DNA of 64,000 bases, taken from the NCBI GenBank assembly GCA_963457665.1, contig OY735220.1:35125194-35189193 (forward strand), written 5' to 3'. Both the position numbers and the translations under genes were made by a program. The DNA is from Thysanoteuthis rhombus. Lineage: Eukaryota; Mollusca; Cephalopoda; Oegopsida; Thysanoteuthidae. The first letter of the stretch is position 1; every line of letters begins with the position of its first letter. This document shows positions 1 to 64,000 of this stretch, piece after piece. Below the pieces are notes generated by a model that saw nothing but the letters and a program-made list of their open reading frames with translations, was not told the origin of the DNA and made no database searches.

Positions 1-172
1 ATATTCAAATAATTAAAATTCAATTATCTGAGAGGTTCATTTTTGAAGAGCACGGAAGCAAGAGTTTTTGGAACCTGTTCAAGCAGAGTTCGACAATACA
101 CAAATGAAAGTATTTGAAAACATTCCAATTATTATATCTATTATTATTTGGACTATCCTCATCTTGGTTGTT

Positions 173-224
173 TTTCATACAATGTTTTGGCCGTTGTACT
201 CTACGGCCTTCATCAGGTATCATA
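173..224 (-). ncRNA. hammerhead-like motif, decayed GAAA box
   Basis: Minus-strand counterpart of the right-arm motif. CTGATGA reads from 216 to 210 and a perfect six-pair stem II lies in 189-208. The GAAAC box has become AAAAC (188-184), losing the invariant G12. Stem I bases GTAT/ATAC are kept. Loss of G12 would be expected to abolish or strongly reduce cleavage, so this arm is probably inactive. Confidence 0.5.
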
Positions 225-292
225 GCGTAGTGGTTACAGAGTCAGACAAAATTACTGCAGGTAATCTGATGGTTCTAGGTTCAATCCCGGTG
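222..292 (+). repeat. tRNA-like segment with A and B boxes (SINE head)
   Basis: TAGCGTAGTGGTT at 223-235 fits the pol III A-box and GGTTCAATCCC at 278-288 fits the B-box, with about 43 bases between them, near the usual tRNA spacing. The bases around them do not fold into an obvious complete cloverleaf with a CCA-ready acceptor stem, so this reads as a tRNA-derived SINE head or fossil. It sits exactly in the loop of the hammerhead inverted repeat. Confidence 0.5.
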
Positions 293-386
293 TGAGACAA
301 TAATAATATTACTAATGCTAAGAGGGGAGTGCGGTCAATATACCCTCGTTGGTTAAATAAAGGGTTCAGTTCATTACTTCCCCACA

Positions 387-438
387 GATAATACCTGATG
401 AAGGCCGTAGAGTACAACGGCTGAAACATTGTATGAAA
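387..438 (+). ncRNA. hammerhead ribozyme-like motif (type I, minimal stem III)
   Basis: CTGATGA at 395-401 is followed by a stem II made of AGGCCGT (402-408), an 8-nt loop and ACGGCT (417-422, one base short of perfect pairing), then GAAA at 423-426. ACAT at 426-429 takes the place of the self-complementary ACGT stem III expected in dimeric Penelope hammerheads, which fits CpG decay. T430 would be the cleavage-site nucleotide, and GTAT at 431-434 pairs with ATAC at 391-394 as stem I. All invariant core bases of the C-loop and the GAAA box are present. Self-cleavage is inferred; the weak stem III means activity might need a dimer. Confidence 0.6.
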
Positions 439-616
439 AACAACCAAGATCAGGATAGTCCGAATAATAATAGAAATAATAATAATACCTCATCTCAAAA
501 ATTCAGAGATATACTAATCCAATTATTGCTATACATCTACATTGACAGTTCCATCATGTAATTAGTTATATATGTATCAATTATCATTATAAACATAACA
601 ATTTGAACTTATTATA

Positions 617-31359: not shown

Positions 31360-31660
31360 AGCTTTGTAATGATTGTCCTTACCAATCAAACCCCTGTGAT
31401 ACTCATCCTTGCCAAAAAAAAAAACACTGTAATATTCATCCTTTCTAACTTAAGTCCTGTAATACGCATCCTCTTACAACCTAACTCTTGTAATACGCAT
31501 CCTTTTCCAACCTGACTCTTGTAATACGCATCCCCTTCCAACCTGACTCTTGTAATACGCATCCCCTTACAACCTGACTCTTGTAATACGCATCCTCTTA
31601 CAACCTAACTCTTGTATTACACATCCTTACCAACCCAACCTTGCAGTACTTGTTGCCAAC
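31360..31660. repeat. 31 bp minisatellite, about nine units
   Basis: Unit core cttgtaatacgcatcc followed by a variable c/t-rich part and aacctgact. Central units (31460-31610) are almost identical; outer units decay on both sides (ctgtgatactcatcc at 31393, cttgtattacacatcc at 31611). Open frame across part of it is incidental. Confidence 0.85.
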
Positions 31661-48580: not shown

Positions 48581-49170
48581 CACAATCATAGATAGACAAG
48601 TTTGCATTAGGCCACATGTTAGCATATTGTGCAAGAGCATATCTTTATACATACAAACATCTAATAACATTTCACATCAAAGCACACAGACATGGAGAAA
48701 CATGACCATAGATAAATTTACATTAGTTTCCATGTATTTACTTTTATATATAAATGTCTAATAATATTTATCATACACGCATACGTATGCTCAAACACAA
48801 TCATACAATAGATGAATCAATATTAGGTTACGCGTGAACATGCTGTGTATGTGTGTAAACACAAACATCTGATAATATTTCCCACATGCACGAACGCAGT
48901 CATACAATAACAGATAGATTTACATTGGGTCACATGTAAACATGTAGTGTATGAGTACATTTATATACACCAATATCTAATGATATTTCCCACATGCACA
49001 AAAGCAATCATACAATAACAGAGATTTACATTGGGCCACATGTAAACATGTAGTGTATGAGTACATTTATATACACCAATATCTAATGATATTTCCCACA
49101 TGCACAAACACAATCATACAATAACAGATTTACTTCAGGTCACATACAAATATACTGAGCATGTTTGTAT
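48581..49170. repeat. tandem repeat, about six units of 95-120 bp
   Basis: Units marked by caatcatacaataacaga-like blocks at 48581, 48701, 48796, 48895, 49003 and 49109. Units 4 and 5 are nearly identical over 107 bp (acatgtaaacatgtagtgta, gatatttcccacatgcac); the outer ones are diverged. Confidence 0.8.
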
Positions 49171-63190: not shown

Positions 63191-64000
63191 TTTCATCATC
63201 ATCATCATCATCAGTCTTTTAGCGTCCGTCGTTGGACATAGACCTTCCCCAGGATTTGCCACACTTCTCTATCATGGGCGTCACGGAGCCAGTACTTCCT
63301 GAACCTGTCTAGTTCATCTCTCCATCTAATATTTTGCCGGCCTCGGTTGCGCATATGGTCTCGGGGAATCCATGTTGTGAGTCGTGATGTCCATCGATTG
63401 TCAGCCATTCTTGCAACATGGCCAGCCCACCGCCATTTGAGATTTTTTATGGCTTCTATGATGTCTCTAACTCTTGTCTTTTCCCGGATGTGTTGTGCTG
63501 TTTTGTGGTCTCTCCATGTGAGGCCCAGCATTATTCTTTCATGTGCACGTTGCATGGTTCTCAGCTTACGGGTCTGTTTCTTGGTTAAGTTCCATGTTTC
63601 AGCTCCATAAGTGACTATTGGGAGGATGCATTGGTTATACACCCTTCTCTTTAGGATTAATGGGATCTTATTATTTTTGAAGGTTGAGCTAGCTCTGCCA
63701 AAGGCTTGCCATCCTAGTGTGATTCTTCGCTTGATTTCTTCTTCTTTTGAGGGTCTCATGGAGATTCGTTGCCCTAGGTAGATGTAGTGGTCTACTTTCT
63801 CGAGTTCTGTGTCCTCGATTTCGATCTTAGTGTTCTTATCTCCAATGTGGTTGTTGCACATGATCTTCGTCTTGCTGAAGTTCATGTGCAGGCCGACTTT
63901 CTTGCTCTCCTCATTTAGTTCATCTATCATTAGTTGGAGGTCGTGTAGGTTCTCTGCAAAAAGGGCTATGTCGTCTGCGAATCTGAGGTTGCTCAGATAC
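63191..64000 (-). mobile_element. RTE-type LINE, 3' end of a long copy running out of the window
   Basis: The tail on the minus strand is (TGA)n (63191-63213) and the coding frame is open from there to the window end. Seven other 3' fragments of this family occur in the window, all truncated at the 5' side as expected from target-primed reverse transcription. The rest of this copy, including any endonuclease domain, lies beyond 64000. Confidence 0.85.
63211..64000 (-). CDS. RTE-type LINE polyprotein, C-terminal part (reverse transcriptase palm to C-terminus)
   Basis: About 262 codons, unbroken, entering from beyond the window and ending in TGA at 63213-63211. The first visible residues are YLSNLRFADDIALF, containing the FADD box: two aspartates of the reverse-transcriptase active site. 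They are followed by the ELNEESKKVGLHMNFSKTKI block (RT box 6), the YLGQRIS motif (box 7), a thumb-like stretch with YGAETWNLTK, and a C-terminal domain with ERIMLGLTWRDHK, AGHVARMADNRW, IRWRDEL and DAHDREVW. This order is typical of RTE-clade LINEs, whose single ORF of about 1,000 residues carries endonuclease and RT for target-primed reverse transcription. A methionine at 63928-63930 is internal, not a start. Absence of any stop suggests recent activity; completeness cannot be judged here. Confidence 0.85.
   Translation of the reverse strand, partial: YLSNLRFADDIALFAENLHDLQLMIDELNEESKKVGLHMNFSKTKIMCNNHIGDKNTKIEIEDTELEKVDHYIYLGQRISMRPSKEEEIKRRITLGWQAFGRASSTFKNNKIPLILKRRVYNQCILPIVTYGAETWNLTKKQTRKLRTMQRAHERIMLGLTWRDHKTAQHIREKTRVRDIIEAIKNLKWRWAGHVARMADNRWTSRLTTWIPRDHMRNRGRQNIRWRDELDRFRKYWLRDAHDREVWQILGKVYVQRRTLKD

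Follow-up and report, generated by a model that had tools for sequence, protein, structure and literature searches.

An inverted repeat near the start of the window

The window analysed here is a stretch of 64,000 nucleotides (nt) from the genome of the cephalopod Thysanoteuthis rhombus (contig OY735220.1, positions 35125194-35189193, our C25; assembly of 2.73 Gb in 514 contigs). Near its start we find an inverted repeat with arms of 96 nt each at 128-223 and 388-483 and a spacer of 164 nt; a 26-nt core occurs once per strand (mean of 0.00 in 100 shuffles). The original prediction saw at 130-478 an inverted pair of hammerhead ribozymes within a perfect repeat of ~93 bp. The repeat is real, but its complementarity is 94% (90 of 96 positions paired) rather than perfect, and the extent was drawn too short, since the right end bears a tail of ~39 nt that carries the element to ~516, with a 10-nt duplication on either side. 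We conclude that the locus is quite probably one insertion of a high-copy, non-autonomous element resembling a short interspersed nuclear element (SINE), whose RNA reads S-A-t and which was inserted in the manner of Penelope elements via two target-primed complementary DNAs (cDNAs).

The element runs, in order, from S, the SINE-like body, through A, the arm that bears the minimal hammerhead-like motif, to t, the tail of ~39 nt; it is ~310 nt long and has no long open reading frame (ORF). The parts of the window copy are given in Table 1.

Table 1. Parts of the element copy in the window and the basis on which each was placed.
Feature	Position	Strand	Basis or remark
Left target-site duplication, TCCAATTATT	124-133		identical 10-mer abuts the right end; family-wide control
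Left untailed arm, inverted copy of A	134-223	-	inverted repeat; untailed start common to the family; read as cDNA from the no-tail site
Left hammerhead-like motif	177-220	-	G12 equivalent (188) altered, CpG decay
Junction of the two cDNAs, CAT microhomology	221-223		read from comparison of copies; microhomology statistics of the family
S, SINE-like body of the right cDNA	221-384	+	5' part absent relative to the consensus
A-box-like motif, TAGCGTAGTGG	223-233	+	by eye against the box consensus; no tRNA model match
B-box-like motif, GGTTCAATCCC	278-288	+	by eye against the box consensus
A, right arm, 3' module like a Penelope pseudo-long terminal repeat (pLTR)	385-477	+	alignment of copies, end comparison, tail-anchored dissection
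Right hammerhead-like motif	391-434	+	stem I ATAC/GTAT; CTGATGA 395-401; extra A402; stem II 403-408/417-422; GAAA 423-426; no stem III
t, tail on one end only	478-516	+	end comparison of copies; exact-tail search
Right target-site duplication, TCCAATTATT	518-527		identical to the left 10-mer

A high-copy family with one tail per two-armed insertion

A genome-wide search for further copies, which the original prediction had proposed, revealed a dispersed, high-copy family. Bases 120-490 as query gave 4,502 first-look candidates, and the 40 best matches to the window copy, which were scored and form the whole-copy set, had two inverted arms and a spacer in every case (40/40). Being the best matches, these copies are complete by choice, and the query, which extended 13 nt into the tail (largely AAT repeats), favoured a tail without requiring one. 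An exact 28-nt tail has 3,328 matches genome-wide, against none for a reversed-pattern control. A second, tail-anchored set, meant to lessen bias, comprises the first 90 of 100 listed places, all on C1-C3 (L049-L138). The consensus from the 40-copy alignment gives the arm core CTGATGAAGGCCGTAGAGTACAACGGCCGAAACGTTGTATG, and the family consensus contains ...ACGGCCGAAACGTTGTATG. A scan of viral contigs with a CpG-tolerant arm pattern returned no match.

In the whole-copy set the tail lies to the right of S in 20 copies and to the left in 20, with no copy tailed at both ends or at neither, so that the S body stands in either orientation relative to the tailed end. The untailed end of the copies stops at ATTTCTATTATT, and the opposite end extends by the ~39 nt of t. 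Among the tail-anchored insertions, an inverted part of variable extent was found in 62 of 90, and 50 of these 62 inverted parts begin at element position 273-285, which is the no-tail site. Two of the 62 were scored as beginning beyond that site, and on reading both have untailed outer ends: at L086 the left end is untailed and its match beyond the site is due to chance, and at L065 an untailed piece comes first and is followed by a jump to a partial tail. The deeper-reaching side is the untailed one in 41 insertions and the tailed one in 21. In none of the 62 do both cDNAs come to within 30 nt of the 5' end of the RNA, where ~4 would be expected by chance (totals of 19 and 12 of 62); we draw no conclusion from this.

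Short tandem units of arm end plus tail (~74 or 104 nt) follow some of the tails (L036, L002, L022, C47:15592661 and C47:20964067-20964462) and look as if reverse transcription had been restarted at one site. We also observe by eye that many of the listed best matches to the A-t peptide lie on contigs C41-C47, which could be due to the youth of these copies or to their spread within a region.

Variable junctions and target duplications

Copies vary in where S begins and in where the inverted arm ends on its inner side; the junction of S and A is nearly constant. Junctions were located in 95 of 130 insertions and gave 86 distinct coordinate pairs, and the 40 whole copies gave 32. To judge from these sequences, the inverted arm appears to be remade at each insertion. 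Overlap of at least 2 nt was found at 54% of the located junctions compared to 28% of blunt control joins (563 made, 558 located; Mann-Whitney p-value 8.8e-6), and extra bases are inserted at 23 of the 95 junctions.

The flanks share an exact word of at least 10 nt in 46, and of at least 8 nt in 63, of the 92 insertions with both ends located, compared to fractions of 0.000 and 0.025 when flank partners are permuted. The shared end words differ in length; 12 nt is the most frequent and 16 nt the longest. The family thus shows the short, variable target duplications of a Penelope-like insertion, as well as its inverted pLTR-like arms with a tail of 30-40 nt on one of them. At the level of sequence, the family shows a single tail on each two-armed insertion of the sets we examined, S in both orientations, variable junctions, target duplications and short microhomology.

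Relation to SINEs and to Penelope-like elements

The S body carries motifs resembling the A and B boxes of RNA polymerase III (Pol III) promoters, seen by eye against the box consensus. SINEs derived from tRNA carry A and B boxes at their 5' ends, lack a long ORF and take their 3' module from a partner retroelement, usually a long interspersed nuclear element (LINE). The present element is like them in its box-like motifs at the 5' end, the lack of a long ORF and a 3' module that is apparently borrowed, and unlike them in that this 3' module shows Penelope features where the usual partners are LINEs. Shuffled sequence folds as well as the whole S-A-t RNA (z -0.42), and for this reason we propose no hairpin stop for the short cDNA.

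Penelope insertions have inverted pLTRs, a 31-bp tail that is optional on one of them, and target duplications of 8-10 bp (PMC3846280). The Penelope protein cuts the target on both strands and extends each of them, reverse transcription beginning at two adjacent internal RNA sites that delimit the tail (PMC11167929). According to the latter source, the Penelope hammerhead cleaves only with the protein and is dispensable for insertion in vitro, the later integration steps of Penelope-like elements await validation, and the start sites of top and bottom strands show no bulk difference (PMC11167929). This bulk result is neutral toward a one-each rule per insertion, which it neither supports nor excludes. 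Penelope hammerheads usually lack helix III (PMC6155905, PMC7761336), and short non-autonomous Penelopes are mentioned in Heliconius (PMC6685494).

Our element resembles the Penelope-like elements (Penelope/Poseidon clade; PMC11167929, PMC3846280) in its inverted pLTR-like arms, in the tail of 30-40 nt on one of them, in its short target duplications and in a minimal hammerhead-like motif near a putative ORF start, and its tail and no-tail sites recall the two adjacent starts and the extension of both target strands in Penelope (PMC11167929). It differs from them in its ~310 nt without a long ORF, its SINE-like body with Pol III-like boxes, its thousands of copies and, in both sets, its one tail per two-armed insertion. 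The motif has the core letters of Penelope hammerheads, with CUGANGA, stem II and GAAA and little or no helix III (PMC7761336, PMC6155905), and departs from minimal hammerheads without helix III in an additional A that separates A9 from stem II; any activity is putative. Metazoan non-LTR retrozymes (PMC7229834) are likewise non-autonomous with a hammerhead motif, and mobilisation of retrozymes by Penelope-like elements has been proposed (PMC7761336), whereas the present family consists of insertions that are dispersed, bear inverted arms and hold a minimal motif.

Read by eye, the A-t consensus forms an open frame in which an ATG follows closely on the hammerhead-like motif and precedes a run rich in asparagine; the start of a Penelope ORF might look like this. 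Our search for an autonomous partner covered GIY-YIG loci (L042-L048), windows 5' of GIY-YIG matches (L139-L150) and the neighbourhood of presumed N-terminal regions (L151-L154). The query piece matches Pfam GIY-YIG, and relatives of one such locus, presumed to be of Penelope type, are abundant (1,561 candidates, of which 150 were scored and all 150 match); another GIY-YIG search gave 7 Pfam matches among 150 scored, and the presumed Penelope N-terminal piece has relatives in 144 matches. Two candidates were discarded: same-strand end matches 3.5 kb apart on C36, considered as a pLTR pair, where the 531 bases after one of them are unrelated flank, and an apparent open frame of 961 amino acids, which adjoins a run of N.

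A model of insertion by two target-primed cDNAs

We propose that the RNA S-A-t consists of a body with Pol III-like boxes, presumably transcribed by Pol III, a Penelope-type pLTR module A with a minimal hammerhead-like motif, and the tail t. A Penelope-like protein, the likely enzyme, would nick both target strands, and each target 3' end would prime reverse transcription inside the RNA, in an order of strands that we infer, one of the cDNAs beginning at the tail site and its counterpart at the no-tail site, ~35 nt upstream. In the window copy the untailed cDNA would have halted after A and the tailed cDNA would have extended into the 5' part of S; joining of the cDNA 3' ends at the CAT microhomology would then have left the inverted arms and the 10-nt target duplication. 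The mirror-image hammerhead-like motifs are most likely the two cDNA ends of one Penelope-style insertion, and as such the fossil of a jump rather than a designed pair. The more detailed proposition, that a SINE exploits Penelope-like machinery through two cDNAs with a strict split (one strand at the tail site, the other at the no-tail site), possibly from two RNAs, and with ends joined by short microhomology, is one that we slightly favour.

Several results weigh against this model. Neither cmscan nor ARAGORN finds a tRNA in S. No second cDNA was detected by our dissection method in 28 of the 90 tail-anchored insertions, and 10 of the 62 inverted parts begin further in than the no-tail site, so that their start site is not shown. 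Junction overlap of at least 4 nt is no more frequent in insertions than in controls (0.09 in both). No autonomous Penelope with an A-t end was present in the 7 GIY-YIG loci or in the further 16 stretches (L139-L154, of which L152 is mostly N), and no copy was seen running past the tail into a Penelope ORF among 30 that were read and then 1 more. Finally, the GIY-YIG and N-terminal coding pieces are presumed to be Penelope partly from motifs, and the N-terminal piece matched no Pfam family.

One source RNA or two, and self-priming

Inverted arms could also be made by self-priming, in which a single template or cDNA is extended from its own hairpin; for the Penelopes of Adineta this has been proposed with an antisense template (PMC3846280). 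Inverted pLTRs are common to both cases, and we regard this origin as unlikely for the present family. In its favour, the arms of one insertion share derived non-CpG bases beyond permutation: the 40 whole copies have 14 (permuted mean 6.0, maximum 13) and 31 tail-anchored insertions have 46 (permuted mean 25.5, maximum 33), and 0 of 500 permutations reach the observed value in either sample. From this excess we take it that the two cDNAs usually share a source or have related ones. Shared rare bases taken alone fall within the permutation range (1 and 5, against maxima of 4 and 8). Against self-priming, the two arms have different outer starts, at the tail and no-tail sites, and differing inner ends. 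Additionally, at arm position 74 they differ in the subfamily base in 11 of 40 whole copies, which exceeds a decay of ~2-3% per arm, whereas the 1 difference among 27 of the tail-anchored set is explicable by decay. Judging by these sequences, the use of two RNA molecules is suggested by the whole-copy sample and not by the tail-anchored one.

The hammerhead-like motif

Next to the two-cDNA model stands the arrangement first predicted, a functional inverted pair of hammerheads under selection, in which each transcript would carry a ribozyme and its antisense; we consider it very unlikely, and the hammerhead reading itself right in part. The core letters predicted for the right arm are present, with ATAC at 391-394 facing GTAT at 431-434. 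The predicted stem II exists as well, but A402 intervenes between A9 and the stem, whose first pair is a G-U, and the supposed stem III of ACAT amounts to one A-U pair around two bases, which leaves no stem III. The consensus shares this architecture of core letters, stems I and II, an extra A before stem II and an absent stem III. The loss of G12 in the left arm (position 188) was correctly seen, and arises because both window arms are CpG-decayed from the family consensus; for a ribozyme pair, this loss and the extra A count against function.

Neither test that the original prediction proposed, an Rfam search and a comparison of the core with its flanks among genomic copies, came out in favour of the pair. 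No Rfam hammerhead model matched anywhere in the window at gathering threshold; bases 1-1000 at E of at most 5 gave four matches, hammerhead not among them, and cmscan of 8 loci picked as better preserved, at E of at most 3, gave no hammerhead. The sole strong permissive match in bases 1-1000 is to a long-hairpin microRNA model (79.6 bits, cut-off 230). The right-arm stretch 387-440 folds better than all 200 shuffles (z -3.77), and in its fold of minimum energy some of the core has other partners than in a hammerhead; for the consensus arm the minimum-energy fold has -13.8 compared to -12.9 kcal/mol for the hammerhead fold, which again speaks against the pair.

Divergence of the core, measured at non-CpG sites with N7 included and G12 left out as CpG, is 0.024 compared to 0.019 for the rest of the arm in the 80 arms of the 40 whole copies, where the core is thus no more conserved than its surroundings, and 0.040 compared to 0.033 in 108 arms of the tail-anchored set. 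Without N7 the core stands at ~0.023 in the whole copies, above the rest, and at ~0.025 over its nine fixed non-CpG sites in the tail-anchored set, below the rest. This latter value is in favour of a selected pair, as is the preservation of all ten fixed core bases in 46 of 73 (whole-copy) and 74 of 94 (tail-anchored) core-covering arms. The free position N7 is the most variable core site of the tail-anchored set (0.18), a weak hint of constraint on the source element. Across the two sets there is no consistent core constraint among copies, as dead copies would show.

The link drawn to minimal hammerheads of the Penelope type stands by context, through the core letters in the arm, the one-sided tail and the target duplications, whereas the inverted ribozyme pair is not supported as a unit, the inverted arm being apparently made at insertion, with an inner end that differs among most copies. 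The source RNA may have carried a Penelope-type hammerhead, whose cleavage activity is putative; the failed Rfam and conservation tests leave room for it, since decay is neutral in dead copies and this variant may be one that Rfam does not cover.

DNA transposition and side-by-side insertions

A miniature inverted-repeat transposable element (MITE) or another DNA transposon whose long terminal inverted repeats enclose a tRNA-like centre would account for long inverted arms and thousands of copies. We consider such an origin highly improbable, as the ends are asymmetric with a one-sided tail in 40 of 40 copies, the junctions vary (86 distinct of 95), 28 of 90 insertions have no detected inverted part and the shared end words are of variable length, where a DNA transposon would have symmetric, inherited terminal repeats and a fixed target duplication. 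Two unrelated SINE insertions, nested or head-to-head, would explain why the left arm resembles the 3' fragment of a second copy, and have a practically negligible chance, being refuted by the family-wide pattern of an identical arrangement in 40 of 40 whole copies and target duplications that flank the pair across sets.

Other features of the window

An open frame at 63214-63999 on the minus strand matches RVT_1 at 32.6 bits and is probably a LINE continuing beyond the window edge. Tandem arrays lie at 31428-31627 (31-nt unit, 6.5 copies) and 48859-49129 (106-nt unit, 2.5 copies). Positions 660-780 of the window and locus L155 contain look-alike sequence around AATCCTC, followed later by GATTTGAA, possibly another dispersed repeat (by eye).

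Implications for Penelope-type insertion

In the literature searched, no tRNA-like SINE inserted in Penelope fashion was found described; most subscription papers were outside our reach and this absence is not proof. The closest cases in it are the short non-autonomous Penelopes of Heliconius (PMC6685494) and the proposed mobilisation of retrozymes by Penelopes (PMC7761336). To judge from that literature, a SINE-like element that travels as a passenger of Penelope-type insertion and offers thousands of junctions for dissection is new. For the question of how Penelope-like elements integrate, a short element with known start sites and readable junctions makes counting possible: its thousands of copies can separate two-sided priming from the self-priming proposed in PMC3846280. 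The family suggests that inverted arms and a lone tail arise by one process, and the mirrored hammerhead-like pair is explained without a paired-ribozyme function, its value being that of an insertion record. If the model is true, the optional Penelope tail would be the signature of dimeric, two-sided target-primed reverse transcription, and the family would widen the range of retroelements that non-autonomous passengers can parasitise.
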